In this document: piece after piece, positions 36,917 through 51,338 of the stretch | Numbering within the stretch: position 1 is the first letter of the stretch | Layout: each line of letters begins with the position of its first letter | Source: Noviluteimonas gilva | Lineage (GTDB): Bacteria; Pseudomonadota; Gammaproteobacteria; Xanthomonadales; Xanthomonadaceae | Length of the DNA: 64,000 bases | Reading direction: 5' to 3' | Assembly: GCF_009740395.1 (NCBI RefSeq) | Contig: NZ_WOXT01000001.1 | Coordinates: 802,464 to 866,463, forward strand | Made by a program: the position numbers and the translations under genes | Notes under the pieces: model-generated | The model's input: the letters and a program-made list of their open reading frames with translations, nothing else | Told to the model about the DNA's origin: nothing | The model's database searches: none

Positions 36917-36992
36917 GGGCCTATAGCTCAATGGTTAGAGCAGAGGACTCATAATCCTTTGGTTCCAGGTTCGAGTCCTGGTGGGCCCACCA
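36917..36992 (+). tRNA. tRNA with CAU anticodon, probably tRNA-Ile2
   Basis: A complete cloverleaf of 76 bases including the encoded CCA. Seven acceptor pairs (GGGCCTA with TGGGCCC), D-arm GCTC/GAGC, anticodon stem GAGGA/TCCTT, loop CTCATAA with anticodon CAT at 36950-36952, and T-arm CCAGG/CCTGG with TTCGAGT. CAU is shared by Met and Ile2 tRNAs. C4-G69 and C5-G68 pairs, the known TilS determinants, favour tRNA-Ile2, whose C34 becomes lysidine to read AUA. Its 3' end is the attachment site of the island that follows. Confidence 0.93.
36961..36992 (+). other. Left attachment site region (attL) at the tRNA 3' end
   Basis: The integrase gene begins about 180 bases after the tRNA and all genes to its right are accessory, so insertion at the tRNA 3' end is inferred. 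The integration rebuilt a full tRNA. The matching right-end repeat is not in the window, so the exact core is not known. Confidence 0.6.
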
Positions 36993-37037
36993 CATAGGCG
37001 TCCAAGGTTGTCCGGGACAGTCCATGAAACAGCATAC

Positions 37038-37062
37038 AACCCCGCAAATCGCGGGGTTTTTT
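37038..37062. terminator. Intrinsic terminator between the tRNA and integrase
   Basis: AACCCCGC and GCGGGGTT around a five-base loop, then a T-run. It isolates the tRNA transcript from the integrase gene. Confidence 0.8.
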
Positions 37063-37105
37063 GTGCGCTCGGGTCCAGGCGTGTCCGCTTGAATCCGGAA
37101 AAAAA

Positions 37106-37168
37106 GTGAGTCAGGCTGTGAGTCAGGCGGCCGGCAAGGGGGCGCTGACTCACAATTGGTTGACTCAC
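37106..37168. repeat. Four copies of a 9-bp motif upstream of the integrase
   Basis: GTGAGTCAG occurs at 37106-37114 and 37118-37126; its complement CTGACTCAC is at 37145-37153 and TTGACTCAC at 37160-37168. Two direct pairs in opposite orientation flank 18 bases, directly before the integrase ATG. This fits arm-type integrase or excisionase sites, or an autoregulatory operator. Confidence 0.6.
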
Positions 37169-37170
37169 AC

Positions 37171-38382
37171 ATGCTCACCGACACGAAGCTGCGCACACTC
37201 AAGCCACGAACGAGTGCCTACCGCCTCGCCGATACCAATGGCCTGTGCATCGAAGTGCGCCCGAGCGGCGCCAAGGTCTGGCGATATCGATATCGCTACG
37301 CCGGCAAGCCGAGCATCATCACGATGGCGGAGTACCCGGCCATGGGCTTGGCGGAGGCGCGCGCCGAGCGGGACCGCCTGCGCGCTCTGGTAAAGGGCGG
37401 GGGTAATCCCGCGAACGCCGCCAGGATCGAGCGGGCCGCAAAGATCGAGCAGGCGGACACGACGTTCGGCGCCGTCGCAGCCGAGCTCTTGGCCAAGCGC
37501 GCGAAGGAAGGGCTGAGTCCTGGATCGGTGAAGCGCGAACGTCGGCTGATTGAGAAGGACATGGCAGCAATCAGCGGCATCCCGATTACCGACGTGACTG
37601 CTCCTCTGCTACTCACTTCGTTACGGAAACTTGAAAAGCGCGGTGTTGTCGAGACGGCTCATCGGGCCCGATCGTTCGCAGGCCGTGTCTTTCGATATGC
37701 CATCGCAACGGGCCGGGCGGTGAACAATCCGGCCGACGATCTCGCGGGTGCGCTCGAACAGCCGCAGACTAAGCACTTCGCCAGCGTGACCGATCCCGCG
37801 AAAATCGGTGACCTGCTCCGAGCCATGTACTCCTACCGAGGGTCGCCGGTGACCGTTGCGGCCTTGAAGCTGGCACCCATGCTCTTCGTGCGACCAGGAG
37901 AATTGCGGAAGGCGCGTTGGGCTGAAATTGATCTAGACGCGGCAGAGTGGCGCTTCACCGCCAGCAAGACCGGGACGCCGCATATCGTGCCGCTTCCATC
38001 TCAAGCAATAGATATCTTGGAGGATCTACACCCGCTCACGAGACGGAGTGAATATGCCTTCCCCGGGGTTCGGAGTGCAAAGCGGCCCATGAGCGAAAAC
38101 ACCATCAATGCCGCATTGCGCTACCTCGGCTTCAATGGGGACACCATCACCGGGCACGGATTTCGCGCTATGGCGCGGACCGTCTTGGATGAAGTGTTGG
38201 GGTTCCGGCCAGACTTCATAGAGCATCAGCTGGCCCATGCAGTTCGAGATCCGCTTGGACGCGCATATAACAGAACTGCACATTTGGGGGAGCGTAAGAA
38301 GATGATGCAGGCGTGGGCCAACTATCTTGATCGACTGCGCGAAGAGGCGAAGAAGGTCGTCCCTATCCGGCGAGCTGGATAG
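37171..38382 (+). CDS. int: Tyrosine-type integrase with DUF4102 N-terminal domain
   Basis: A protein of 403 residues. MLTDTKLRTLKPRTSAYRLADTNGLCIEVRPSGAKVWRYRYR is the P4-type integrase N-terminal domain (DUF4102). The C-terminal catalytic part shows the first Arg in LFVRPGELRKARWAEID, HGFRAMARTVLDE with the H-x-x-R, and the end RTAHLGERKKMMQAWANYLD; the Tyr nucleophile is expected in AYNRTAHLGER. Such enzymes insert islands into tRNA 3' ends. ATG 37171 is preferred to TTG 37156, since MLTDTK is the usual family start. Confidence 0.93.
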   Translation: MLTDTKLRTLKPRTSAYRLADTNGLCIEVRPSGAKVWRYRYRYAGKPSIITMAEYPAMGLAEARAERDRLRALVKGGGNPANAARIERAAKIEQADTTFGAVAAELLAKRAKEGLSPGSVKRERRLIEKDMAAISGIPITDVTAPLLLTSLRKLEKRGVVETAHRARSFAGRVFRYAIATGRAVNNPADDLAGALEQPQTKHFASVTDPAKIGDLLRAMYSYRGSPVTVAALKLAPMLFVRPGELRKARWAEIDLDAAEWRFTASKTGTPHIVPLPSQAIDILEDLHPLTRRSEYAFPGVRSAKRPMSENTINAALRYLGFNGDTITGHGFRAMARTVLDEVLGFRPDFIEHQLAHAVRDPLGRAYNRTAHLGERKKMMQAWANYLDRLREEAKKVVPIRRAG

Positions 38383-38394
38383 GGGGCCCTCGTT

Positions 38395-39300
38395 ATGAGA
38401 ATCGAGGCATCTGTGGTGCAGGGGCTCGTCGATCAGGCGAACCGTTTGCAGCTTGCCGCCGTGGTGCCGGCGGATTGCGGGCGTGTCGACGTTGCGGCGG
38501 AACTGCAGGCCACACGCGAACGCTTAGCCCGGCGCATTGACGCACACCTGCAACCCTGGTTTGTCCTGCTTGACGAAGGCATTCAGTTCTTCGTGCAGTT
38601 CGAGCGATATCTGTACGAGTTTCCGGTTAGCAGCAACCGCGCAAGTTTCGCGGTGACCATTTCGAAACTCAAACGCGACGTCATCTCGATACGCGACCTG
38701 CTAGCCATCGGCCAGGATATGACCGCGCGAGTTCTGGCACGCACATTCATTGAGAACATCGAAATCGCCATGGCGCTGGCGTTGAGTGCTGAAACATGCG
38801 AGGCCTTTGCCGCGACGCACGACACGAACGAGTTCTGGAACAGACACATTGGGTACGGAAAGGTGTACGACAAAGTGCATCAGTATCTCTTGGCCTGTGG
38901 CATCCAGGAAGAACGGTCCAAGCCACTCGTCGACAGGCACCGCGAAGCAAAGAAGATGTTCTCCGAGAGCACGCATGGTGGACGCCAGTCCTCGCTCATG
39001 AGTGCATTTGCGCCGTCACTTACCGATAAGGACGAAGTGCACTTCTTGTCCCTTGGTGCGCTTACCTACGTCACGGCGCAACTGGCACTGTTCATTGCAC
39101 AGGAGACGCATGCGCTTGCGGGCTCCATCATAAAGGGAAGGATGGCTGCTGACCCGTTGCATCTCTTTAGGGACTTTCTCATCACCGGTCGGTATATGAA
39201 TGCCGTCGGCTCCGCCTATGTTCTTCAAGAGCTGCTGATGCGCTATGAAGGTGAGCTGGAGCATCAAGAGGCGAATTTCGCATGCGGCATCGAACGGTAA
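38395..39300 (+). CDS. Uncharacterised helical protein of the island
   Basis: A protein of 301 residues, not recognised. It is almost entirely alpha-helical by composition. The middle part (ISIRDLLAIGQDMTARVLARTFIENIEIAMALAL) resembles the HEPN-like helical proteins of the DUF5677 type, but the R-x4-6-H motif of a toxic RNase is not evident. It starts 13 bases after the integrase stop, so the two may be co-transcribed. GC and codon use are lower than in the core genome. Confidence 0.6.
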   Translation: MRIEASVVQGLVDQANRLQLAAVVPADCGRVDVAAELQATRERLARRIDAHLQPWFVLLDEGIQFFVQFERYLYEFPVSSNRASFAVTISKLKRDVISIRDLLAIGQDMTARVLARTFIENIEIAMALALSAETCEAFAATHDTNEFWNRHIGYGKVYDKVHQYLLACGIQEERSKPLVDRHREAKKMFSESTHGGRQSSLMSAFAPSLTDKDEVHFLSLGALTYVTAQLALFIAQETHALAGSIIKGRMAADPLHLFRDFLITGRYMNAVGSAYVLQELLMRYEGELEHQEANFACGIER

Positions 39301-39608
39301 GCAGCTAACTCCATAGCGGACATGGCGCGTCGGCTGCTTATGGACGAGGCCTGTACGTGCACAGGGGCATGCGCGATTCGGATTTGCCAACATCTCATCG
39401 CAGCTGAGTCCTTCGCCGACGAGGCCACGGGTGGCTAGGCAAGAACTGGAAGCTGCGTGGTCAGCAGCTTTGACCAACGCCGTTATTGATCGCTGCCGTT
39501 TTCCAGGCCTGGATGTAGCGTATTAAGAGCCTTTCCGCGCAGATCGGGAACGAGCATTGGCAAGCGGCGTACCGCGGCGCGGTTACGGGTCAGAACTTGC
39601 CGGGCCAA
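39301..39608. other. Intergenic region, nothing recognised
   Basis: About 308 bases between two converging genes. No credible gene, repeat or RNA was seen, and no clear terminator. Confidence 0.5.
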
Positions 39609-40097
39609 CTAGAAGATCCTCAGCTCCACGGGAACGATACTGCGAGGCAGGAGGCTGCGCGTGGCGCCAAGCGTGAATACTTGCGTGCCCCATCTGTGTC
39701 CGCTTCCGGCGAATAGCACCATCAGCGGATCGGGACAGCGCGCTTCTGGAGCATTGGCTATGCGGCGCAACGTGCGCTTGTCTAACGGACTCAGCCGCGC
39801 AGTCCCTGAGGGATGGGTATGCCAATCACCAAGATAGGTCGTCGCTCCATTTGATTCACGGTAAAGACGCGCGATCTCATCCACGTGGTACTCGTCGTCA
39901 GGAACGAATGTGTAGCGGTGATGCTGGGCGTCATTCCCGGGGCCGACAAAATCGGTGACGATGGCGGCTTGGCCGTTCCAGTACCCGGCGAGCACTCCGC
40001 CAACTTCCAACGGTTCCCAATCCCTTGCGAGTTCTTCAAGGTCCTGCTGAATGCCGCGAGGCATCCAGCAGACCTCAATGGTTGGTGCACTTCGCAT
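39609..40097 (-). CDS. JAB/JAMM-family metallopeptidase (deubiquitinase-like)
   Basis: A protein of 162 residues with a perfect JAMM motif: Glu31 in EVGGVLAG, then H93-T-H95 followed by S103 and D106 in DWHTHPSGTARLSPLD. JAMM peptidases cleave isopeptide bonds or process modifier precursors. The gene overlaps the end of the E2-E1 gene by 23 bases, so it belongs to that operon and probably plays the role that Cap3 plays in type II CBASS. It differs from RadC, whose gene lies at 58972. Assignment to the JAMM fold is firm; substrate is unknown. Confidence 0.9.
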   Translation of the reverse strand: MRSAPTIEVCWMPRGIQQDLEELARDWEPLEVGGVLAGYWNGQAAIVTDFVGPGNDAQHHRYTFVPDDEYHVDEIARLYRESNGATTYLGDWHTHPSGTARLSPLDKRTLRRIANAPEARCPDPLMVLFAGSGHRWGTQVFTLGATRSLLPRSIVPVELRIF

Positions 40098-41796
40098 GAC
40101 GCGGCAGCTTGTAAGGGGTCCACTTGGGCAGTTGGGGGCGGCCTGCCTCGTCGCGCAGGTCTACCACGGCGACGTTCCAGTCGTATTGCGTGGCCGGTTG
40201 GGCGCCGACGTGCACCAGGACTTCGTCCATGACCACGCGCACGCCCATGAGGCTAACTTCGCTCAGGTCCACCTGCGCACCAACAAACGTAGGATCCAGG
40301 CAGCCCGCGGGCTGCACCTCGGCGCTTTCCGGGGCGCTGCGCAGCTTCGGAATCTTTACTTCGGCGTCCTGGTCGTCGAGGTAGTAGAGGTGGCACATCC
40401 AGCAGAAATCCTCCGGTTTTCCGCTCGCGCGTCCAACCAGTCCCGCCCAGCCTCCATTGCTCGCATGCATCCACACATGCGGAATCCCTTGGTGGCGGGC
40501 AAAGGCCGAAAGATAGTTGCTGACGCCTATGGATGCGGAGGCATCGAACAGACACGTGACGCCGTTCACCAAGCCTTCGTAAGCCTTATCCAGCCACGCC
40601 ATGTCATCAGACGATGCATCGCCGATCCGAAGCGTGGTGGGAACCACGGTCGTATACGGGAAGTTTTCACTCAGCACGGCGTGGAGCACCGTGACCTTGT
40701 GATGTCCGGCGTAATCGCGACCAAGCTCCCACCGAATGGCGTTGCCGGCATCGAGCACGTCATGGTCGAACAGCCGCAGCTCCCCGATGCCAGCCTGGGC
40801 GAGCCACTTGGCCGCGGGAGATCCGATACTGCCCGTGCCGACCAGTGAGACGCATCCCTTCTGCAATCCCTCGGCTGTGGGATCGCGTCGGAAGTAGTTG
40901 GTCCGACTTTCCAATTCCACGCGATGCAGCGCCCGGTCCGTCGAGCCGACGGTCTTGGTCTTGTTGCCGATGGACCTGCTCACCACGATGGCGTTGCCTT
41001 CGGCTCCCTTCCAAGTCAGTTCATCCGCGAAGAGAAGGGCAAGCAGATCGATGCGAACGTCGGTGTTGGGAAGTGGCTTCCAGGCAGGGCGGGAAAGGTT
41101 TGCATCACTTTCAGCCGCTAGCTTCAAGAAGTCGTTGGCGTCCCCGACCTTCGGGCGCTCCGCCAACTTGACCCATCGGCCCTCGACGATTGGGCGTTTT
41201 GTGAAGTTTTCACGACTCCGCGCTTCCGAGGAGAACAACACCCTGCCCTGCTGATCGAGGACCTCAATGACGGTGCCGCGCAGGGGGTTGAGCTGGACCA
41301 GGCCGATCTTGAACGTGCCTTTGTCCGGCAGCGTGGAAATGTCGAACGCGGGAAATCCAACAAACGATCCCTGCTGGGGATGCAGGAACGCCGTTACGGG
41401 TTCAGCCTCCTTGCCGTTGAGGTCCTCCTCAGGCTGACCAGGCTGGCCGGCGAATACACGCGGCAGCTGCTGGTCGATCAAGGACGACAGCGTGTCGGTA
41501 GCAGGCTTCCAATCCTCTCCGTTGCGCCTGAGCATGCACAGTTGCTTCGAGCCCGGCGTCTGATGTCGTGCCAAATCCAACGTTGGTGCCACGACCATCG
41601 GATTGGCGAAGGGGTAGTTGAACGGATAGTGGGCGACCAGTCGCAATGGCTGGCCGTCCCACAGTTTGGTGAGGTTCAACGTCAGCCGTCCCTTGCTTCG
41701 AGCGCCTTCGTCGACTTCAAACGTGATGCCGGCAGCTTCCAGCGCCTGCTGCTCCCGTTCCCAGCGCGCCGGGTCGAGTTCCCACCACTTAGTCAT
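40075..41796 (-). CDS. E2-E1 fusion of a bacterial ubiquitin-like conjugation system
   Basis: A protein of 573 residues. The N-terminal ~140 residues look like a prokaryotic E2: YPFNYPFANPMVV, then QLCMLRRNGEDWKP with Cys87 as the likely catalytic cysteine. The C-terminal half is a ThiF/E1 adenylation domain with nucleotide loop G320-T-G-S-I-G325, GELRLFDHDVLDAGNAIRWELG, a C-x-x-C (CWMC) and a later cysteine in AGCLDPTF. This E2-then-E1 order is that of Cap2 of type II CBASS. No CD-NTase is encoded nearby. ATG 41796 follows the upstream peptide's stop by two bases; TTG 41802 is an alternative. Confidence 0.85.
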   Translation of the reverse strand: MTKWWELDPARWEREQQALEAAGITFEVDEGARSKGRLTLNLTKLWDGQPLRLVAHYPFNYPFANPMVVAPTLDLARHQTPGSKQLCMLRRNGEDWKPATDTLSSLIDQQLPRVFAGQPGQPEEDLNGKEAEPVTAFLHPQQGSFVGFPAFDISTLPDKGTFKIGLVQLNPLRGTVIEVLDQQGRVLFSSEARSRENFTKRPIVEGRWVKLAERPKVGDANDFLKLAAESDANLSRPAWKPLPNTDVRIDLLALLFADELTWKGAEGNAIVVSRSIGNKTKTVGSTDRALHRVELESRTNYFRRDPTAEGLQKGCVSLVGTGSIGSPAAKWLAQAGIGELRLFDHDVLDAGNAIRWELGRDYAGHHKVTVLHAVLSENFPYTTVVPTTLRIGDASSDDMAWLDKAYEGLVNGVTCLFDASASIGVSNYLSAFARHQGIPHVWMHASNGGWAGLVGRASGKPEDFCWMCHLYYLDDQDAEVKIPKLRSAPESAEVQPAGCLDPTFVGAQVDLSEVSLMGVRVVMDEVLVHVGAQPATQYDWNVAVVDLRDEAGRPQLPKWTPYKLPRHAKCTNH

Positions 41797-41798
41797 GA

Positions 41799-41942
41799 TC
41801 AACCCACCGGACGGTGGCCCGGGGGGCGGGGCGGGTTCTGCGGGTTGCCGGGGTGCGGGTTGGGCGGGCCCGGCGGGACGTTCGGATGCCCCGGGTGTTC
41901 GGGATGCTGCGGATGGTCCGGGTGATCAGGGTGGTTGGGCAT
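41799..41942 (-). CDS. 47-residue His/Pro-repeat peptide with C-terminal glycine
   Basis: A 47-codon gene with a good Shine-Dalgarno (AAAGG about nine bases upstream) and a stop two bases before the E2-E1 start. The protein has six H-P-x repeats (residues 4-21, NHPDHPDHPQHPEHPG), then a Pro/Gly/Asn stretch, and ends HRPVG. It contains no Lys and no Cys and is unlikely to fold as a beta-grasp. Its place as first gene of an E1/E2/JAMM operon and its terminal glycine make it a candidate modifier, substrate or scaffold. It could also be a low-complexity peptide with only a coupling role. Function is inferred only. Confidence 0.55.
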   Translation of the reverse strand: MPNHPDHPDHPQHPEHPGHPNVPPGPPNPHPGNPQNPPRPPGHRPVG

Positions 41943-41985
41943 GGGGGTAGCCTTTAAGATGCGAACCTACGACAGGTCCGGCTAC

Positions 41986-42003
41986 AAACTATACGGATAG
42001 TTT
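41986..42003. promoter_or_regulatory. Inverted-repeat operator between the conjugation operon and its WYL gene
   Basis: AAACTAT and ATAGTTT form a perfect seven-base dyad around ACGG, in the 103-base divergent intergenic region. Its position suggests the binding site of the WYL protein encoded at 42046. Confidence 0.6.
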
Positions 42004-42045
42004 TATGACGGGTCAAGTAACTATTCTGACCAGAAGGGGCGGCCC

Positions 42046-42930
42046 ATGAGCGACACCGAAAACGCGCCAGTACGTTGGAGCGTTGAGCAGCGCCTCGCAT
42101 TCATAGAGCGCAGGCTGTTCTGGGACGGCAAGATCAACCGATCCGATCTCGTCGACCACTTCTCCATCTCCACCCCGCAGGCGTCGTCAGATCTATCGCA
42201 ATACGACGAAGTGGCGCGGGGCAATATGGCGTACGACAAGCATGCCAAGGCCTACCTGGTAACGGAGGAATTCCATCCCCGCGCCGAACCCAACGCCCGG
42301 GAATACCTAGCTCAGCTGCAACTGATTGCAGACGGCGTGCTGCGACAGCAGGAGTCGTGGCTGGGCTGGGTTCCTCCCTTCGGCCTCGTGCCACGTGTAA
42401 GACGGAAGTTAGGCGCCGATGTGTTGCAAAGCATCTTGGGTGCCATACGCAGCGGCTTGGCCTTGAACATCGAATACCAGTCGATGAGTGCGCAAAGGCC
42501 ATCACTTCGATGGATCGTGCCGCATGCGTTGAGCTTCGACGGCTATCGCTGGCATGTGCGAGCGTGGTGTCATCGACGAAACAAGTTTCTGGATTTCGTG
42601 CTTGCGCGAATCTTGGTTGTTGAGTCCACACGCGAAGAGAAAATCGACCCAGCGACGGATCGCGCATGGAATGAAACAACTGTATTGCGTCTAGGTCCAA
42701 ATCCCCTTCTTCCGCCTGCGCAGCAGAAGGCAATCGCCTTGGACTTCGGAATGCAGGGAGACTCCGTACCTGTTGAGGTAAGGAGAAGCCTGGTCTATTA
42801 CTTGGCGCGCCAGCTGCTTCTTGACGTAAGCAACACCCTGCCTCCGGAAAGAGTGCAAGTTATCTTGTTGAATTTGGACGAAGTGAACGAAGATCTGGAG
42901 TCGGTAGGTGAGGCCAAAATTGGAGCGTGA
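42046..42930 (+). CDS. WYL-domain transcriptional regulator (CapW/BrxR type), first copy
   Basis: A protein of 294 residues with an N-terminal winged helix (SVEQRLAFIERRLFWDGKINRSDLVDHFSISTPQASSDLSQYD) and a WYL domain in the middle (LRWIVPHALSFDGYRWHVRAWCHRRNKFLDFVLARI). A C-terminal extension follows, giving the wHTH-WYL-WCX plan of the repressors CapW and BrxR, which control CBASS and BREX operons. It is divergent from the E2-E1 operon and is presumably its repressor. The effector that releases repression is unknown. Confidence 0.85.
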   Translation: MSDTENAPVRWSVEQRLAFIERRLFWDGKINRSDLVDHFSISTPQASSDLSQYDEVARGNMAYDKHAKAYLVTEEFHPRAEPNAREYLAQLQLIADGVLRQQESWLGWVPPFGLVPRVRRKLGADVLQSILGAIRSGLALNIEYQSMSAQRPSLRWIVPHALSFDGYRWHVRAWCHRRNKFLDFVLARILVVESTREEKIDPATDRAWNETTVLRLGPNPLLPPAQQKAIALDFGMQGDSVPVEVRRSLVYYLARQLLLDVSNTLPPERVQVILLNLDEVNEDLESVGEAKIGA

Positions 42931-42988
42931 GTGACGTCTTCCAGCGTCCAGATTGACAAGTATCCGCTAAAATATTTGACGCAATCTG

Positions 42989-44932
42989 CTATGCGATAAG
43001 TTCATTCAAGCCTTCCCACGCAAAGACCATCGCTAACGTGTCGAGCTCGCAATAGCGCAAAAGCTGGACACGCAAGCGTTGAACTGCCGCCTCATCCAAC
43101 AGGCCGCTCTGGAGGAGGCCGTAGGCCACCATCGCGGCGCCGCCATCGGCGATAGCCTGTTCCTCATCCTCGAGTCGCTCAAGGCCAACCAGGTCTGGAT
43201 CTTCGCATCGCTCACCAAGAAGTAGGTATGGATCAATGACCGAGCCTGCCTCGTTGCGCTGCACCCAAACGTGGTTTTCGAAGTTCATGCTCCGAATGCC
43301 GTCGTCGCGGCCGTAGATAGGTTCGGCGTACCGCTGTTGCAGGCGAGCTGACGATGCAAGGAGTGCCGGTAGCACCTTCTTAAGCGAACTGCTTCCGCGC
43401 GTCCCCGGGAAGAAGATTGTGCGATGCACTAGGCGGCCCAAATCAAACAAGCGCCCGGGCACACCCTTGTCGCCGAGCAGATCATCGATGAATGCCACGA
43501 GTTCGTCGCGATCGGCAACTTGTTCGATGGGGCTTGCCAGCAGCTGCCTACGCACTTCACTGAGGACGGTGCGCTCGTGATCCCACCAGTGCAATACGGT
43601 GCCGCCGTCTCCGGCCAAGGCCGTCTTCAAGGCGCGAACGGTTTCAAAGTTCGGTAGGTCGGCCAAGGACTCCGACAAGTGCTGTGTTTCGTGCGCGAGT
43701 GCCCCATCGGCATTCAATCGATGGTGTGAGAACTGAAAGAGCAGCTGCTCGTATGGGCGACGTCCAGCGTGGAAGGGGAGCGCTGGGCGCGAGGTTTCAA
43801 AGTCGATGAAATGCAGCGGATACGTCAATGCCTCGATCTGCGCGCGGAGTGGATCCGAACGGACGAACGGACCATTCAATGCGCCACGCGCTTCCTCGGA
43901 CTGCAGCCACTGCCGATGGGAAAGGGCAATCTCGTCTTCCTTCGGGTCGAACTTGACGTTCTCTGGTTCGATATCGACCAAGAGCAGCTTGCGCTCGGCT
44001 AGCAAGGCATCGGTCTGCCGAGAGGAATACAGGTCAAACACGGTTCCCATCGATGTTTGGTGCGGCTCGACCTGGTAGGCCGCCGAAATGCAGCGTCCGC
44101 GGCCATCCAGCTTGCCTTGTGTCAACGCTTCGGTGGTCGCACGGTATTGGCAGGACTTGCAGTGACTTCCGAGCCTAGGTGGGTAGGGTTCGGTGTCGAG
44201 GCGACGTGCCAACTCCTCAATGCCCTCGCCAAATCCAGCTCCCCATCCCCCCATCTCCAGGGGGAGGGTTTCTAGCTGGTCGAGATACTCGTCGACGGGC
44301 AGGGTGTGGAGCACCTGGCGTGCCAAGTTGCCATCCTGCAAAGAGGGGTCGATTTCAATGCGGACTCGTCCGCCGTCCCGCCGAACTTGCAGCCGTTGCG
44401 CCAAGTTGCCTTCGTCGCAGAGGCTTGCTTTGTTGGGCATTACCAAATGACTTCGAACTGTCGCTTGCGGATAAGCCTTCTTCAAGACGTAACGCTGAAA
44501 CGCGACATCGTAGAGGTAGGGCTTCATGCCGCTCAGGAACCCACCTCGCTTTCCGAGGATCTGCGGATCGGCAGGGTCGATGCCCTTTGCCTTGACCTCA
44601 AACAGATCCAGCACATCGCCTGACTTGCGCAGTAGGTCTGTGCGCACAAACAGGCGTCCGACGCGAATGGCGGCCTCAAACAAGGTGATATCGCCCTGTT
44701 TGAGCATCTCCTCGGTCAGGTCAGCCTGCGCGTCGTGTCCGATGGCTTCTATTTCGATGCCATCGGGAAAGAGGCATTTTGCCAAGGCACCGACCTGATG
44801 CCCTCCCTCCGCCAGAGCGATTAGGAACTCGTTGTCGAGATCCGCGTTCGCAAACGCCGGCGCATCGCTGTATTCGAGCTTGGTTGGGCATTCGAGCGCG
44901 AGCGCGAAACGACTCTTTGTCAGATACCTCAT
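42989..44932 (-). CDS. DUF2779 protein: Cas4-like nuclease fused to DEDD exonuclease
   Basis: A protein of 647 residues. The N-terminal half has the Cas4/RecB-like PD-(D/E)XK elements: C15 in ECPTKLEY, FVRTDLL with D99, and E112-V-K114 in LFEVKAKG. SHCKSCQYR supplies the cysteines of a possible Fe-S cluster. The C-terminal half opens with LHFIDFETSRPAL, the exo I motif of a DnaQ-type DEDD exonuclease, and ends YCELDTLAMV, its last motif. It is 38 bases downstream of a WYL gene, likely in one operon. A defence role is suggested by the context only. Confidence 0.82.
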   Translation of the reverse strand: MRYLTKSRFALALECPTKLEYSDAPAFANADLDNEFLIALAEGGHQVGALAKCLFPDGIEIEAIGHDAQADLTEEMLKQGDITLFEAAIRVGRLFVRTDLLRKSGDVLDLFEVKAKGIDPADPQILGKRGGFLSGMKPYLYDVAFQRYVLKKAYPQATVRSHLVMPNKASLCDEGNLAQRLQVRRDGGRVRIEIDPSLQDGNLARQVLHTLPVDEYLDQLETLPLEMGGWGAGFGEGIEELARRLDTEPYPPRLGSHCKSCQYRATTEALTQGKLDGRGRCISAAYQVEPHQTSMGTVFDLYSSRQTDALLAERKLLLVDIEPENVKFDPKEDEIALSHRQWLQSEEARGALNGPFVRSDPLRAQIEALTYPLHFIDFETSRPALPFHAGRRPYEQLLFQFSHHRLNADGALAHETQHLSESLADLPNFETVRALKTALAGDGGTVLHWWDHERTVLSEVRRQLLASPIEQVADRDELVAFIDDLLGDKGVPGRLFDLGRLVHRTIFFPGTRGSSSLKKVLPALLASSARLQQRYAEPIYGRDDGIRSMNFENHVWVQRNEAGSVIDPYLLLGERCEDPDLVGLERLEDEEQAIADGGAAMVAYGLLQSGLLDEAAVQRLRVQLLRYCELDTLAMVFAWEGLNELIA

Positions 44933-44970
44933 GGCTCCCCCGGAGATCTCGCTGTTCCTCAGTTCTACAC

Positions 44971-45804
44971 TTATAGCAGTGCTCCTGGTGGAAGTTCGCT
45001 TGGCTTATGCACTGCCAGAATGAAGTCTGGTGGGAGCTGCCTGCTGGTATCAACCGCCGCCCTGTACGCTTGGACAAGGTACTTAGACACGGGAAGGCGG
45101 ACTTCGAAAACCCGCGCAACGGTGCCCGCCATGTACTCATCGCGAACGAGTTGGGCCTGGGCAGCACTCAAGTGTGGGTGCGGGATCAATCGAAGCGTTA
45201 TCAGCGTGTCCCACGCCTGGTCTTCCTCTGCTCCTGGCAGCAGCGAATGCGCCGGATCGTCTACTCGGCTTATCCGGCCGAGGTTGAAGTCACGAAACTC
45301 CTTGGCCCTGTCGCAGTACGCGCGAACGTGCCAGCGCGGTCCGGCTTGGATGAGGGCGTGGGGCCGGATCGTACGCTCGTGTGCTTCTGGATTGTTGAGC
45401 GATCGATACTCGATCTGGATCTGCTTGCCCTCGCGAATCGCGGTGTGGATTCGAGAGAACGGTCCGTGCTGGATATGCGTGGCGTGCTGTTGGGCCGAGA
45501 TGAGCTCGACGCCCGCGCGCAGTCCACGTAGGGCGAGCGTGCCGATTAGGGCTTCGTACTCACTGAATCGACCATCCGTGAGCTGTGGGCGCGCGTATGG
45601 CGTAACGACGTAGGCTCGGGCGCCGGTGTCGTACTGGCAGTTGTCGGGCACCAGGTGGGCGTAGGCGGCCATGTCGCGACTGAGGACGGTGCCGTGGACG
45701 TCGAAGATCTCCGCCAGCCGCGGGCGGGAGACCCGGCCCTCCCACAGCAGCAGAATCTCTACTGCTTTCACGCGTTCTTGGTGGCCGCGGGGGGTCTTTG
45801 CCAT
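44971..45804 (-). CDS. WYL-domain transcriptional regulator (CapW/BrxR type), second copy
   Basis: A protein of 277 residues with winged helix (RVKAVEILLLWEGRVSRPRLAEIFDVHGTVLSRDMAAYA), WYL domain (IEYRSLNNPEAHERTIRPHALIQAGPRWHVRAYCDRAKEFRDFNLGRI) and C-terminal extension. It has the same plan as the regulator at 42046 but is clearly diverged. It lies between the DUF2779 gene and the Wadjet operon, with a perfect 12-bp palindrome upstream. It probably represses one or both operons. Confidence 0.85.
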   Translation of the reverse strand: MAKTPRGHQERVKAVEILLLWEGRVSRPRLAEIFDVHGTVLSRDMAAYAHLVPDNCQYDTGARAYVVTPYARPQLTDGRFSEYEALIGTLALRGLRAGVELISAQQHATHIQHGPFSRIHTAIREGKQIQIEYRSLNNPEAHERTIRPHALIQAGPRWHVRAYCDRAKEFRDFNLGRISRVDDPAHSLLPGAEEDQAWDTLITLRLIPHPHLSAAQAQLVRDEYMAGTVARVFEVRLPVSKYLVQAYRAAVDTSRQLPPDFILAVHKPSELPPGALL

Positions 45805-45828
45805 GGCGCCGACGTGGGCTGGGTTGCC

Positions 45829-45862
45829 GGTAGCATAAAAGTATCGGACGTTTTATGCTACC
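45829..45862. promoter_or_regulatory. Perfect 12-bp palindromic operator before jetA
   Basis: GGTAGCATAAAA and its exact reverse complement TTTTATGCTACC are 10 bases apart. The site is 25 bases before the WYL start and covers the first ATG available to jetA (45855), so binding would block both directions. Confidence 0.75.
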
Positions 45863-47324
45863 GATGCCGTGGCCGGGGACCCGAGGCTCCAAATTGGACC
45901 AGGAAGCTGTCGCACCGCTGTTCGATCGACTGCCGGAAGGCATCTTCCGGCCCTTGGGCGTGGCTAACAGCCGCCACTACTGGGACGTTCTATCGAGGGT
46001 GATGTCGACGCTCTGGGGCGACGACGGTCGCGCCCCGGGCGAGGAGGTGTCCAAGACCGTGGTGGTTCGGGTCATCGAGTCGTGCATCGTGGCGAATGAT
46101 CCCTGGGACGGCGAGCTGCAGACCCCAGTGGGCGTGCTCAGCCACATGATCTTCAAGACGCTTTCCGAAGCGGGATGGTTCTCGGTGCGGCGCCGCGGCT
46201 TGGTCGATATGGTCACAGTGAAGCCGCGGATCGGCATGCTGTTCACGATGCTCAACGAGTTCGCCCGGCAGGAACCCGAGTACATCGGCGGCCAGGTGCG
46301 ATCGATTCTGCTCAACCTGCGCTCGGTCACCGAGGACAGCAGCGATCCCAATGCCTGCAGCGCCTACCAGACCGCGGCCAAGCAGGCCCGGCAGTGCATG
46401 GCGCACATCATCAATACCGGGTGTCGGGTGCAAGACTTGATGGACGGCCTGGTGGAGTTGGAGTCCGCACGCGACTTCGTCCATGGCTTCTTCACCGACT
46501 TCGTTGAGCGGGTGTACATCGCCGACTACAGCGAGCTACGGACCCGCAACCATCCCCTGCAGTACCGCGGCCAGATCATCGAGAAGACTTATGCGCTGCA
46601 GGATGACGAGGCTTCGCGTGAGCGACTGGTCAGCTGGTACGTCGAGCACATCGGCAAGGGTGACCGGGAGCGTGGGGAGGCTGTCTATCGGCGTGATACC
46701 CACCAACTGCTGCGCCTGAACAACATTGAGGATCACCTCGCCCGGTTGGACGAGGAGATCAACATCGCTAACCAGCGGGCGCTGGCGTTGATCGAGTACA
46801 AGCTGCGCGCCCCGAAACACCTGGACAAGCTGATCAGCCGGGCTTGCGCCTCGTTGGCGGGGATGGAAGAGGGTCACCCTGCGTTGCCCGGCGACGCCGG
46901 CGGCGTGCACTGGTCGGCGCTCGCGCTGGCCAAGCCCCGCAGACCCTTCAGGGAGCAGGTGGCCACCGCCGTCGAGGCGATCGAGTTATCGGATGAGGAG
47001 CTGGCGATGGAGTGGCTGCGCCGGCGCATGGTCGAGAACCGGAAGGTCACCGCCGTGCAGCTGGCCAACTATGTCGCGCGGATGCTCGACGACAAGCAGC
47101 GGGTGGACTCGGACGCGCTCGAGATCGAGTCAATCAACGACCTGTGCTGCTACCAACGCCTGCTGCTGATCGCTTCGCGCGACGACGCGCCTCTGCAGTT
47201 GCGTCGGCACGACCCCGTCATGCAGATGCTGCGCGGGATCCGGGTGAGATTCGAGGACGAGCGCATGACGAACAACGTTTACATGACCCATCGACGCTTT
47301 GTCGTCGAACGTGAGGGAGCGTGA
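45855..47324 (+). CDS. jetA: Wadjet defence protein JetA
   Basis: A protein of 489 residues (if the ATG at 45855 is used), MukF/kleisin-like. The opening LFDRLPEGIFRPLGVANSRHYWDVLSRVMSTLWGDD and the helical middle (LARLDEEINIANQRALALIEYKLRAP) fit JetA. It bridges the JetC heads and JetB. The ATG at 45855 lies inside the palindrome and has no Shine-Dalgarno; ATG 45864 or a TTG near 45894 with GAGG upstream may be the real start. Its stop overlaps jetB. Together with jetB-D it forms a complete system that cleaves closed-circular plasmids. Confidence 0.88.
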   Translation: MLPMPWPGTRGSKLDQEAVAPLFDRLPEGIFRPLGVANSRHYWDVLSRVMSTLWGDDGRAPGEEVSKTVVVRVIESCIVANDPWDGELQTPVGVLSHMIFKTLSEAGWFSVRRRGLVDMVTVKPRIGMLFTMLNEFARQEPEYIGGQVRSILLNLRSVTEDSSDPNACSAYQTAAKQARQCMAHIINTGCRVQDLMDGLVELESARDFVHGFFTDFVERVYIADYSELRTRNHPLQYRGQIIEKTYALQDDEASRERLVSWYVEHIGKGDRERGEAVYRRDTHQLLRLNNIEDHLARLDEEINIANQRALALIEYKLRAPKHLDKLISRACASLAGMEEGHPALPGDAGGVHWSALALAKPRRPFREQVATAVEAIELSDEELAMEWLRRRMVENRKVTAVQLANYVARMLDDKQRVDSDALEIESINDLCCYQRLLLIASRDDAPLQLRRHDPVMQMLRGIRVRFEDERMTNNVYMTHRRFVVEREGA

Positions 47325-47935
47325 TGGCCAACTGGGAGCGACTGGCGGCACAGAGCAACGGCGTCTACGAGGAGCAGGATTACCAGCAAGCGGCCTATCG
47401 CCTGATGATGGAGCAGGTGATCTACGCCGGCGACCGCGGCGGACGCGTGCCCTATGAACTGGTGACTCGCCACCTGGGGCCTTTCCGCGACGTGTTCGAG
47501 CATTTCGGGATGACGATTACCCATAACCCGCACCATGGCTACGTCGTCGTCATCCCACGCCACGCCTTCGGTGCCCGGATGCGGCTGGAGGAGACGCGGC
47601 TGGCGCTGCTGCTGCGACGGGTCTACGACGACCGGATCAACGCGGTCGACATCGTGGACGGGGAGGCCTTCGTCACCCTGGAGGAGCTTGAGCAGCTCTA
47701 CAAGGATCTGCTGGGCAGGCAGTTGCCTGATCGCGGCGAGATGCGCGAACTGGTGCGCTCGCTCAAGCGCAACGGCATGGCCCGCGAGATCGAAGCGGCA
47801 GACGACCAACCCTTCCAGATCGCGATCCGCCCGGCGATCACCGACATCCTGGGCCAGACCGCGTTGCTGCAGCTAGCGGCCTACGGCGTCGACTCCGAAG
47901 TGGTCGAAGAGGAGGCCGACGATGAAGCAGCTTGA
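47324..47935 (+). CDS. jetB: Wadjet defence protein JetB
   Basis: A protein of 203 residues, MukE-like (DUF4194). Family elements are YRLMMEQVIYAGDRGGRVPYELVTRHLGPFRDVFEHFGMTITHNPHHGYVVVIP and the C-terminal IAIRPAITDILGQTALLQLAAY. It binds JetA as its winged-helix partner. ATG 47324 overlaps the jetA stop (TGATG); GTG 47321 is an alternative. The end overlaps jetC by 14 bases. Confidence 0.87.
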   Translation: MANWERLAAQSNGVYEEQDYQQAAYRLMMEQVIYAGDRGGRVPYELVTRHLGPFRDVFEHFGMTITHNPHHGYVVVIPRHAFGARMRLEETRLALLLRRVYDDRINAVDIVDGEAFVTLEELEQLYKDLLGRQLPDRGEMRELVRSLKRNGMAREIEAADDQPFQIAIRPAITDILGQTALLQLAAYGVDSEVVEEEADDEAA

Positions 47936-50900
47936 GTCGATTGGTCTGGTCCAGTACTTCCTCTACACCCGGCAAGATCTTGATGTCGGTTGGAACACGG
48001 CCTTCCTCGGGCCCAACGGTACCGGGAAGACGGCACTGCTCGATGCATTGCAGATTGTGCTGCTGGGCGCCGATCGCAACCGGATCCACTTCAACGCCTC
48101 GAGCGAAGGAAAGCGCCGGGCCCGCAGCCTCCGCGACTACTGCCTCGGCGTGTATGGGCAACGGCCGAGCGACGTGTGCCGGGACTCGGCCAACACCTAT
48201 ATCAACTTGGTGTTCCGCGATCCCGATACCGGTGTGGCGGTGACCGCCGGCGCCGCCCTATCCGCGACCCTGGACAGCCAGGATCACATCTTCCACAGCC
48301 TCTACATCCTCCCCGGCGTCGCGCTACGCACCGAGCAGATGATCGAGATGCAGGGTGGAAAGGAGATGGTGCTGCCCTGGCGACGGATGCAGCACGAACT
48401 TGCCGATCGCTGCAGGGCGGTTGGTACCACGCCGGTGTTCACCATCAACGGCGAGGAGTTCTCCCGCCAGTTGTTCGGCGCGCATCTGGCCGAGCGCGGC
48501 GAGTCGCCGAACTATCGGGCGATCCGCACGGCTTTCGCCCGATCGCTCAAGCTCAACCGCGACGTCGACGACCTCAACGAGACCCTCCGCAGCCACCTGA
48601 TCGAGGCGCGACCGACCAACGTCACTCAGTTCCGCGCCAGGCTGGACCAGTTCCGAGAGATCCAGCGCACCATCCAGGAGCTGGCCGAACGCTTGGCCGA
48701 GGCCGAGGCCGTCGAAAAGCAGTACCGCACAGTCAGGCAGCACTTCGTCAAGGCGGCCAACTACGGTTATTTGAAGGCCGTGTACTCGTCCGAACGGCTC
48801 GGCGAACAGGTAGGCGAAGCCGCGGACATGATCGAACATCTCACGCTGCAGGAGACTTCGGCGAAAGTGGCGCTGAGCAAGGCGGAGGCCGATGCCGCGG
48901 CGGCACACAAGCGACTAGTGACGGCGGAGGTCGCGCTGAACCAGGATCCGGAATACCTGAGTCAGTTGGGCAGCAGGAAGGAACTGGACAAGAGTCGAGA
49001 GGATCTGGGCGGGTTGCGGGTCGGGTTCAAGGACGAGCTGGCCCGGCTGGGCGGCACAGTGCGCCGCTTAGTGGGCAACAAGGACCTAGCCGATATGCAA
49101 GGTAGCGGTGCGAAGGCGCTTGAGTACCTGTCCGCACTGACCCAACACGTGGGGCGGGAAGAGGAGATCCAGCCAGAGGACACTCTAGTGTTGGCCAACG
49201 CCATCGGTGCGCTGCACAAAGCTGTCGACGATGTGCGGATGGAGCTCGCCCAACAGTCGGTCGAGGCGAACCAGGCGCTGGCCTTGGCCAAGGGCGACAT
49301 CGCTCGGGCCGGCTCCGGTCGGGCGCCGCTTAGGCGCGAAGTGGCAGGTCTGCAGGCCCTGCTTGAGGAGGCCGACATCCGCACCACGCCCGTGTGCGAT
49401 CTGGTCGAAGTCAAGGATCCGGAATGGCAGCCGGCCATCGAGGCCTACCTTGGGCGAAATGTCGACGCTTTGTTGGTTCACGATCCGGCGCAGGAAACGG
49501 CCGCGGTAGATCTCTACCGACGCAATCGTCGGGATATCTACGGCGCCAAACTCGCTCTGAGCACGCGTACCCGCCCGTGGCAGGCCCCCGGTGGGGGCAA
49601 ATATGCTGCCCAGCTGATCGCCGGCGACGACAAGGGCGCCGTGCGCTTCCTGCAGGGCGAGCTAGGCAAAGTAGCGCTGGTGGACAGCAGTGAGCAGCTG
49701 CGCGTGGGCCATAAGGCGCTCTCGCGTGATGGCATGGTCAGCTCTGGCGGCGGCATCGATCGCCTGCGCCTGTTGACGACGGCCGGCCTGCGCATCGGTG
49801 GGCTCAGCAATGATGAGCAATTGCGGGCGGCGCGCGAGGCGCTGCGGAAGGCGGATGAGCATTACGAGGCGGTCAAGCATCGGCTGCAGTTGGTGGTGGA
49901 CATCGGTCAGGCGCTCGCGTCGGCTGGCGACAGCGACACTATCCAGAAGCGTCTCCAGGCGACCGTCAGCCAGATCGTGAACCAGCAAGCCGCGATCACC
50001 CAAGTGGAGACAATCGTCGAAGCGGGTGCCTCCGGTGGCGTCGCCGCGCTTAAGGCTGCGGCAGCGGACGCAGCGAAGGAACACGAGGCGAAGGACACGG
50101 CCAAGATCGCCGCCTCGAACGAATTGACGCGGATTGGATCGGCCTTGGGTGGCATGCGCGGACAGCTCGAACGGCTTGAGCGCGAACAAATCGACGCCCA
50201 GGTGGCTGAGTCGGCCGCACGCCAGAACCCACTGTGCGACCTCAATGCGGCCGAGGAGCTTCGGCAGGCAGTGGACGCCAAGACTGAGGAAGATGCGGCG
50301 GCGGCAATCGCCGAGTGCACCAAACAGCACGAGGACAGCGCCCGACACGGCAACACCGCCAACATCAAGGCGTGGGGCCTCATGACCACGTACTTGGCCA
50401 ATTACCAGCTCGAGAACCACGAGATCCGCGACCAGGACTGGCGGCAGGCCCAGGTCATGATCCAAGGCGAGATCAAGCGGATGTCCGAACTGGAGCTCGT
50501 CGAGAAGAAGGACGAGGCCGACCGCGCGTACGCCGCCGCCGTCGACGTCTTCCGGTCGGACGTTGCGCATACCTTGCTCAACGGCTTCGATGCGATCGAG
50601 GAGCAGATCAAGGGGCTGAACCGGATACTCGACAAGGCGCCGGAGTTCACCAACGGCGAGCGGTACCAGTTCAAGGCCACCAAGGTCGACCAGCACCGGA
50701 AGCTATACGAGTTCCTGCAACGCGTGCGGGAGATGGGTGAGAGCGAGGCCACGCTGTTTGGCGGCTCCGGTCCCATCCCGGAGGAATTTCGGCTGCTGGT
50801 GGAAGGCGATGGCAAGGGCTCGCCGCTGCAGCTGGAGAACAGTCCGCTCAACGACCATCGGTTGTTCTTCAGCTACGACGTCGACATCTATGCCGGCGGC

Positions 50901-51338
50901 GAGTTGAAGGGGAGGCTCAGCAAGCGGTTCGGGCCCGGCTCCGGTGGCGAGCACCGCACGCCGCTCTACGTCATCTTCGGTGCCGCGCTGGCTGCCGCGT
51001 TTGGCAAACCGGCGGGCACGCCAGGGTGCGGCGGGTTGATCATGTTGGACGAGGCGTTCGAGAAGATGGATGCCCAGAACGTGCGTGCGACTGCCGAGTA
51101 CCTCAATGCCCTCGGATTGCAGATGGTCATCGCCGGCCCCGAATCCGACCAGGCAAAGATGTCGTCGTTCCTCGACGTGTATTGGGACATGGCGCGGTTC
51201 GGATCGAAGCGGATCCAGTTGTTCCGCAACGAGGTGAAGCCGGCTGCCCGGGAGTTGCTGGCCAGCGACATCGTCGCCGTGCATCCGGAACTGATGGAGG
51301 AGGCCTTGGCCGAGGTTGCGGAGCCCGCAGGTGGCTGA
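47922..51338 (+). CDS. jetC: Wadjet SMC-like ATPase JetC
   Basis: A protein of 1138 residues. Walker A is G30-P-N-G-T-G-K-T37 near the start. Two long coiled-coil segments flank a hinge around residues 480-560 (VCDLVEVKDPEWQPAIEAYLGRN). The C-terminal head carries the ABC signature LSKRFGPGSGGEHRTPLYVIFGAAL and Walker B with catalytic Glu in LIMLDEAFEKMD. This is the MukB-like motor of Wadjet, which extrudes DNA loops to measure circle size before JetD cuts. GAGGAGG precedes the ATG. Confidence 0.93.
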   Translation: MKQLESIGLVQYFLYTRQDLDVGWNTAFLGPNGTGKTALLDALQIVLLGADRNRIHFNASSEGKRRARSLRDYCLGVYGQRPSDVCRDSANTYINLVFRDPDTGVAVTAGAALSATLDSQDHIFHSLYILPGVALRTEQMIEMQGGKEMVLPWRRMQHELADRCRAVGTTPVFTINGEEFSRQLFGAHLAERGESPNYRAIRTAFARSLKLNRDVDDLNETLRSHLIEARPTNVTQFRARLDQFREIQRTIQELAERLAEAEAVEKQYRTVRQHFVKAANYGYLKAVYSSERLGEQVGEAADMIEHLTLQETSAKVALSKAEADAAAAHKRLVTAEVALNQDPEYLSQLGSRKELDKSREDLGGLRVGFKDELARLGGTVRRLVGNKDLADMQGSGAKALEYLSALTQHVGREEEIQPEDTLVLANAIGALHKAVDDVRMELAQQSVEANQALALAKGDIARAGSGRAPLRREVAGLQALLEEADIRTTPVCDLVEVKDPEWQPAIEAYLGRNVDALLVHDPAQETAAVDLYRRNRRDIYGAKLALSTRTRPWQAPGGGKYAAQLIAGDDKGAVRFLQGELGKVALVDSSEQLRVGHKALSRDGMVSSGGGIDRLRLLTTAGLRIGGLSNDEQLRAAREALRKADEHYEAVKHRLQLVVDIGQALASAGDSDTIQKRLQATVSQIVNQQAAITQVETIVEAGASGGVAALKAAAADAAKEHEAKDTAKIAASNELTRIGSALGGMRGQLERLEREQIDAQVAESAARQNPLCDLNAAEELRQAVDAKTEEDAAAAIAECTKQHEDSARHGNTANIKAWGLMTTYLANYQLENHEIRDQDWRQAQVMIQGEIKRMSELELVEKKDEADRAYAAAVDVFRSDVAHTLLNGFDAIEEQIKGLNRILDKAPEFTNGERYQFKATKVDQHRKLYEFLQRVREMGESEATLFGGSGPIPEEFRLLVEGDGKGSPLQLENSPLNDHRLFFSYDVDIYAGGELKGRLSKRFGPGSGGEHRTPLYVIFGAALAAAFGKPAGTPGCGGLIMLDEAFEKMDAQNVRATAEYLNALGLQMVIAGPESDQAKMSSFLDVYWDMARFGSKRIQLFRNEVKPAARELLASDIVAVHPELMEEALAEVAEPAGG

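Follow-up and report, generated by a model that had tools for sequence, protein, structure and literature searches.

A conserved proline-rich peptide ending in Val-Gly as the proposed modifier of a bacterial E2-E1/JAMM module

The peptide gene and its operon

The window analyzed here, a 64,000-nucleotide stretch of the Noviluteimonas gilva genome, contains three adjacent genes on its reverse strand, which we observed in the order peptide, E2-E1 fusion (with a ThiF domain), and JAMM protease (Prok-JAB). The first gene (41799..41942, stop codon included, minus strand) is read from 41942 to 41799 and translates to MPNHPDHPDHPQHPEHPGHPNVPPGPPNPHPGNPQNPPRPPGHRPVG followed by a stop. This 47-aa proline-rich peptide, for which we propose the role of a modifier, contains six HPx units, no Lys, no Cys, and 40% Pro. 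It ends in HRPVG, and the codons for its C-terminal R-P-V-G occupy 41802..41813 (minus strand). The sequence AAAGG is located 8 nt 5′ of the peptide ATG, and the TGA stop is separated from the ATG of the E2-E1 gene by the dinucleotide TC, leaving a stop-to-start gap of 2 bases. A sequence-only reading of the window had already described this frame, with its ribosome-binding site, H-P-x repeats, absence of Lys and Cys, HRPVG end, and 2-base gap, and each of these points was confirmed from the sequence. The peptide gave no match to Pfam, NCBIfam, or PADLOC models at the limits used.

An AF2 model of the peptide, built with 21 homologues, has neither helix nor strand (pTM 0.19, pLDDT 75). Given this model, the short length, and the proline content, the peptide does not meet the criterion of a beta-grasp fold. 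The predicted pLDDT of 75 is nevertheless above that of a typical disordered chain and counts against reading the peptide as unfolded.

Upstream of the peptide gene lies a sigma-70-like promoter site (TTGACC, 17 nt, TATAGT; 10/12; 41988..42016, minus strand). This is a consensus match only, with 1 site found versus 0.7 expected in shuffles. A 7-bp perfect inverted repeat (AAACTAT-N4-ATAGTTT; 41986..42003, unstranded) covers the −10 element of this site and is a possible operator. The divergent gene at 42046..42930 (plus strand) encodes a WYL-domain protein (PF13280, 1.6e-13), which might, by inference, be a regulator of the peptide module.

The E2-E1 fusion and the JAMM protease

The E2-E1 fusion (573 aa; 40075..41796, minus strand) consists of an E2 part (residues ∼1 to 130, including H78 and C87), a middle part (∼145 to 295), and an E1/ThiF part (∼292 to 573). 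The JAMM/Prok-JAB protease (162 aa; 39609..40097, minus strand), whose gene overlaps that of E2-E1 by 23 nt, carries the motif HTHPSGTARLSPLD together with EVGG and meets the JAMM criterion of a catalytic E and H-x-H-x(7-8)-S-x2-D. Pfam assigned ThiF/E1 (PF00899, 1.2e-16) to the fusion and Prok-JAB (3.7e-11) to the protease. Across 27 aligned E2-E1 proteins, H78 and C87 of the E2 part and C465, C468, C499, and C570 of the E1 part are invariant, as are G320, G322, G325, D346, and K367 in the E1 part. C499 is probably the E1 thioester cysteine, an assignment made by inference.

In profile comparisons, solved Cap2 was the best hit of E2-E1 (1.7e-20 over the E1 part), and UBE2L3 was matched at ∼2e-5. 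A structural model of the fusion (pLDDT 78.6) returned Cap2 as its first Foldseek hit (2.1e-22, although with a whole-chain TM of only 0.43), and residues 292 to 573 have an E1 fold, with Z scores of ∼25 to UBA5, MoeB, and ThiF; MccB and BubCD are also among the structural matches. The criterion of a ThiF/E1 adenylation fold with nucleotide-binding and cysteine residues is met. Support for the E2 part is thinner: the VIA-align rows mostly cover residues 293 to 573 and hold little information on the E2 and middle parts. The E2 part of the window protein was not recognized by Pfam at an E value of 0.001, and its identification rests on the alignment and the UBE2L3 profile match. Among the homologues, the Pfam model Prok-E2_B was passed by L007 (4e-39) and L046 (1.4e-26), with L034 just below the cutoff (25.1 versus 25.4 bits); no Prok-E2_B match was obtained by Pfam in L008, L017, L050, or the window protein. 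A JAMM motif was detected downstream by script in 41 of 44 loci; in the three remaining loci, a JAMM protein is indicated by annotation (L012) or by clustering (L013 and L038). With the E2-E1 and JAMM genes adjacent, the criterion of a cognate E1, E2, and deconjugating protease is also met.

Homologous loci

When plasmids were searched by tblastn with the window E2-E1, 151 records matched. In 10 of these, the match covered at least 80% of the query, and eight loci were examined. All eight have a proline-rich frame at the start of E2-E1, ending in R(P or Q)VG or, in Hymenobacter, in RPVGQQ. The peptide is annotated in one of the eight (according to the PLSDB gene tables, which are incomplete), and modifiers of this type would therefore escape notice. 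The window peptide alone gave 0 matches as a query against plasmids, as expected for a low-complexity sequence; the operon DNA also gave 0 matches.

A species-genome collection, queried with an alignment of six E2-E1 proteins, yielded 35 loci, including one (L048, E 4e-6) that was excluded as a family member after its translation was judged to be a MoeB-like protein. In the later searches, the query was an E2-E1 profile or the window E2-E1, never the peptide. These added four members of the clade: L050 (ending in NHRPVG), L051 (RKVA), L054 (RPVGR), and L058 (KHVG, a second copy on pNGR234a). All four loci, found without use of the peptide, possess the tail, one with Ala in place of Gly. The window protein alone returned nothing as a query in genome contigs.

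The final set comprises 47 loci, namely the window, L006 to L013, L014 to L047, L050, L051, L054, and L058; L003 was left out as a duplicate of L040 with the same sequence. These loci span Pseudomonadota, Bacteroidota, and Actinomycetota, with one KSB1 and one Planctomycetota metagenome-assembled genome. Related strains contributed some near-copies: 33 different tails are represented among the first 42 peptides, L003 included.

The module was detected in <1% of genomes in each taxon sample searched. At 1e-15, 4 of 395 genomes from the window's family matched (the window, L003, and the CBASS-like L004 and L005); the counts were 5 of 369 for its class and 5 of 398 for its phylum, in samples that share genomes. 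For G942, the family (1 of 248) and the class (1 of 385) each gave G942 itself. The E2-E1 had no match in a phage collection or in viral contigs (window protein or two alignments as the query), and a phage origin of the module was rejected on these grounds; these scans used either tblastn or short conserved patterns, and distant copies may escape them.

Conservation of the tail

A proline-rich tail coding sequence is located directly upstream of E2-E1 in 45 of the 47 loci, in two cases as a DUF1508 fusion. The tail was observed to end in Val-Gly in 44 loci and in Val-Ala in one (L051). Four of the 44 carry one or two extra residues after VG (QQ in L006 and L031, LL in L027, and R in L054). The criterion of a C-terminal Gly, sometimes exposed by trimming, is met by 44 of the 45 tails. 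Both tail-less loci (L025 and L042) have an N-terminally truncated E2-E1. The sequence-only reading had asked whether short His/Pro peptides upstream of other E2-E1 fusions conserve the C-terminal Gly, and these counts show that nearly all of the tails do. It had also stated beforehand that frameshifts, a missing ribosome-binding site, or the lack of a conserved C terminus in homologous operons would refute it; these were checked, and the finding survived.

The script that compiled the 33 unique tails demanded VG, so the VG count in that set arises by construction. The unconditioned test was a scan in which upstream open reading frames (ORFs) were chosen on proline content alone, applied to 44 loci (9 earlier ones plus the 35, L048 included). 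An ORF was found in 36 of these, and all 36 end in VG or VG plus two residues. The eight misses have individual explanations: in L003 and L013, the peptide is present beyond the scanned distance; in L045, the tail is present without a usable start codon, next to a broken E2-E1; in L028 and L037, it is carried by a larger protein; a tail is absent from L025 and L042; and L048 is unrelated. As background, a VG or even a Gly end occurs in 0 of 19 other proline-rich ORF ends of the fetched loci, and a VG end occurs in 32 of 6,316 ORF segments of any kind.

Within the 33 unique tails, position −3 is occupied by R in 28, K in 4, and G in 1, and seven columns, those of the last V and G among them, do not vary in an alignment of 21 peptides. 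Valine is encoded by GTA (13), GTC (9), GTT (6), and GTG (5), and glycine is encoded by GGC (17), GGA (7), GGT (6), and GGG (3). For the last 31 codons of eight pooled homologues, pS is 0.66 and pN is 0.095, calculated from nonindependent pairs within a single clade. Since every Val codon and every Gly codon is used and pN is far below pS, we conclude that selection maintains the tail as protein.

These data bear on three explanations in which the peptide is not a modifier. The region is GC rich, and chance frames exist in such DNA. We give this explanation practically no credence and rejected it, as the same end recurs in 45 of 47 loci against a background of 0 of 19 and pN is far below pS. 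An artifact in which the VG codons serve as the Shine-Dalgarno site of E2-E1 was likewise rejected, given that all GTN and GGN codons occur and that stop-to-start spacing varies. Alternatively, the frame could be a regulatory leader peptide, acting through ribosome stalling or through translational coupling to E2-E1; its many Pro codons and the near contact of stop and start codons would suit such a role. The conserved portion is instead the last residues, with synonymous freedom, the spacing varies, and in two loci a folded domain region of 110 residues takes the place of the body, which makes a leader peptide very unlikely.

The sequence-only reading had also entertained a metal-binding His scaffold. 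The HPx repeats of the window and Arthrobacter peptides and the position of two plasmid copies near copper or cadmium genes are compatible with this idea. Histidine content nonetheless ranges from 0 to 17% across homologues and is 2 to 4% in many, and the number of Lys residues in the short peptides varies from 0 to 5 (values for 39 of 42 peptides). Because His is not conserved, this option is disfavored, to the point of being hardly credible.

Body replacement and the search for another modifier gene

In two Hymenobacter loci (L028 and L037), the gene upstream of E2-E1 encodes a protein of 160 or 162 aa, respectively, in which a DUF1508 domain (PF07411; 1.4e-18 and 1e-21) is followed by a Gly/Pro tail ending in RQVG or RPVG. 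The enzymes of these loci fall within a five-row Hymenobacteraceae group (100/100) in the E2-E1 tree, and the other three rows have the bare peptide. If the tail is what the enzymes recognize, such an exchange of the body would be expected.

We also searched the loci for any other gene that might encode the true modifier. Clustering of genes of at least 90 aa in 46 loci recovered E2-E1 in 46 and JAMM in 39 at that cutoff, and the next family was confined to 8 related replicons. Because a 90-aa cutoff would miss a small ubiquitin-like gene, frames of 45 to 200 aa were also clustered in 47 loci; JAMM (39 loci) was followed by antisense frames of both enzymes and then by the 8 related replicons. 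The antisense status of the wider 45- to 200-aa frame families was judged by coordinates. Flanks of ∼3 to 4 kb were clustered for most loci and of 1.5 kb for L050, L051, L054, and L058. No gene of ubiquitin or beta-grasp size was seen to recur beside the module among the genes of at least 90 aa, the 45- to 200-aa frames, or the flanks of the loci. A different recurring gene as the true modifier was rejected, as none beyond the 8 related replicons was found within these flanks besides JAMM and the antisense frames of the enzymes. The suggestions that the peptide is an unfolded modifier or a substrate carrying the glycine gain support from the C terminus conserved across phyla, the body swap, and the lack of any recurring rival modifier gene in the loci, with conjugation itself inferred.

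Comparison with known systems

Pup is a small, unfolded protein modifier with a GGQ or GGE end, and the enzyme that attaches it is a glutamine synthetase-like ligase, PafA, rather than E1 and E2. The proposed modifier resembles Pup in being small and apparently unfolded. It differs in its ending (VG, VA, or VG plus one or two residues) and does not meet the GGQ/GGE criterion.

The Bil system combines a bacterial E1, E2, JAMM, and modifier in one operon (PMC11354881, from the portion of the text available), as does BUB, whose BubCD is among the PDB matches of E2-E1. Unlike the peptide module, Bil encodes E1 and E2 separately, and its modifier contains two ubiquitin-like domains (same portion of PMC11354881), and no conserved gene for a modifier of that kind was found in our loci. 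Iyer et al. (2006) described five types of E1/E2/JAB operons, 6a to 6e; the operon section of that paper, in the portion available, describes no proline-rich peptide (PMC1779556). By our own identification, their NGR234 type fits the DUF2604/metal-binding/JAB/E2-E1 cluster at 395.4 to 398.3 kb rather than either peptide module on that plasmid. In the open-access full-text literature, to which the search was limited, no description of such a peptide was found. E1-E2-JAMM conjugation itself is known; what we call new is the proposed conjugation of this type with an unfolded peptide as the modifier.

ThiF-like enzymes act on short unfolded peptides, and in the MccB-MccA pair an E1-fold enzyme acts on the C terminus of such a peptide, as we propose here (PMC12250964, in the sections available). 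The module might accordingly produce a RiPP-like compound, in which E1 would activate the peptide C terminus to yield a modified or cyclized product, as MccB does with MccA, and E2 and JAMM would be tailoring or processing enzymes. The occurrence of MccB among the structural matches is consistent with this possibility, which we regard as quite unlikely. MccA has a C-terminal Asn, and the MccB system has no thioester (PMC12250964, same sections) and is not known to include an E2 or a JAMM; the tails of the peptide module have Gly or Ala and do not meet the Asn criterion. An E2 with invariant H78 and C87 and a JAMM protease are foreign to those systems as they are described in that source, and the terms JAMM, Mov34, and ubiquitin-conjugating never appear in this RiPP review. 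Moreover, the loci share no recurring gene for export, immunity, or additional tailoring, the body of the peptide can give way to a DUF1508 protein, and the peptide lacks Cys and a conserved C-terminal Asn or Glu.

The closest parallel to the proposed modifier is found in type II CBASS, in which cGAS, through its C-terminal Gly (or Ala), forms a thioester with Cap2 and is conjugated by it, and Cap3 cleaves the conjugate (PMC10097602 and PMC11153139, as far as the accessible text goes). Both systems have an E2-E1 fusion and a JAB protease, lack a beta-grasp modifier, and draw a C-terminal Gly or Ala from the gene before E2-E1 (same sources, within the same limits). Two CBASS criteria are met by the module: a fusion related to Cap2, judged by the profile and Foldseek results above, and a Gly or Ala C terminus on the protein encoded before E2-E1. 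Unlike type II CBASS, the peptide module has no CD-NTase or effector, and its tail is a stand-alone peptide ending in VG, not the C terminus of an enzyme. No CD-NTase was found among the window proteins scanned, nor does a family of this kind recur in 46 loci; the peptide gene takes the upstream position.

Five outlying E2-E1 hits (L004, L005, L052, L053, and L055) have an upstream gene ending in GFA. Three of these five genes match the CBASS cGAS model below the cutoff (as fragments), and two match nothing. A GFA-ending gene before E2-E1 in five CBASS-like loci is the published Cap2 logic. An E2-E1 tree of 37 rows (32 of the peptide type and 5 of the CBASS type; 15 of the 47 loci were omitted as redundant, partial, or broken) places the two types on opposite sides of a 100/100 branch; the tree is midpoint rooted and gives no direction of change. 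Lacking a CD-NTase and lying on the other side of the tree, the module was rejected as a CBASS system in disguise. The five loci and the Cap2 precedent lead us to infer that the peptide does the job of the cGAS tail while being a small protein in its own right, without a predicted fold.

Proposed mechanism

We consider it likely that the peptide is the modifier of a self-contained, three-gene ubiquitin-like conjugation module and that it is unfolded; no biochemical data stand behind the conjugation, its targets, or its benefit. In homologues that extend one or two residues past Gly, trimming, presumably by JAMM, would come first. The C-terminal [R/K]-x-V-G would then enter the E1 half of E2-E1 and be adenylated with ATP, and the tail would pass as a thioester to the E1 cysteine (probably C499) and on to C87 of E2. 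Attachment to a target nucleophile, most likely a lysine, would follow, and JAMM would take the attached peptide off again. The proline-rich body may act as an extended unfolded spacer or handle in place of a ubiquitin fold. Activation by E1, the thioester relay, conjugation, and JAMM processing are all inferred, and the peptide has not yet been seen as a protein.

It is also conceivable that the tail, either loaded on E2-E1 as a thioester or docked in it, only controls this enzyme and that the real modifier is some other protein of the cell. The sequences name no target, and the module has no separate target gene, as this self-modification would allow. The extra residues that follow Gly in the pro-forms, the module's own JAMM, and the exchange of the body are in keeping with a modifier cycle instead, and the Cap2-type enzyme of CBASS conjugates a tail-bearing protein to many proteins (PMC10097602, in the part available). 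We therefore judge a purely regulatory role unlikely.

As to what the enzymes recognize, we lean toward the view that E1 and E2 read only the short tail [R/K]-x-V-(G/A). The modifier could then be a bare peptide or any tailed protein, the ubiquitin fold would be dispensable, and tail reading would possibly be an older or parallel branch. Tail-bearing carriers under such tail reading are the DUF1508 proteins found here and, in CBASS, a CD-NTase with its own tail. The general assumption is that E1-E2 cascades handle folded beta-grasp modifiers, with CBASS as an exception in which a large enzyme is the modifier. If the proposal is true, a tail is all that an E1-E2 cascade requires, the known modifiers gain a very small tag that is genetically encoded, and what an E1 recognizes becomes directly testable.

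Genomic surroundings

The peptide module lies within an apparent genomic island beside a tRNA gene (36917-51338) that also holds two WYL genes. Its members include an integrase (37156-38382), a DUF2779 protein (42989-44932), the second WYL gene (44971-45804, minus strand), and a Wadjet-type JetC (47922-51338). A role of the module in phage defense is a guess that draws only on this island and the Cap2/Cap3 parallel, and defense genes were examined in detail only around the window. Neither Pfam nor PADLOC gave a match for a 301-aa frame between the integrase and JAMM genes (38395-39300, plus strand). A 13-bp perfect inverted repeat with arms 10 nt apart (45828-45863) lies between the gene at 45855 (plus strand) and the second WYL gene; it is a possible WYL operator and does not resemble the repeat at 41986-42003.

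Elsewhere, the module adjoins a divergent RES/Xre toxin-antitoxin-type pair in related Sinorhizobium/Sphingobium loci (L009, L010, L013 to L016, L019, and L020) and lies among copper- or cadmium-related and DUF305 genes on the Hymenobacter (L006) and Arthrobacter (L007) plasmids. pNGR234a carries two diverged copies of the module, at 251.8 kb (L058) and 296.8 kb (L009), with tails ending in KHVG and RPVG, respectively.
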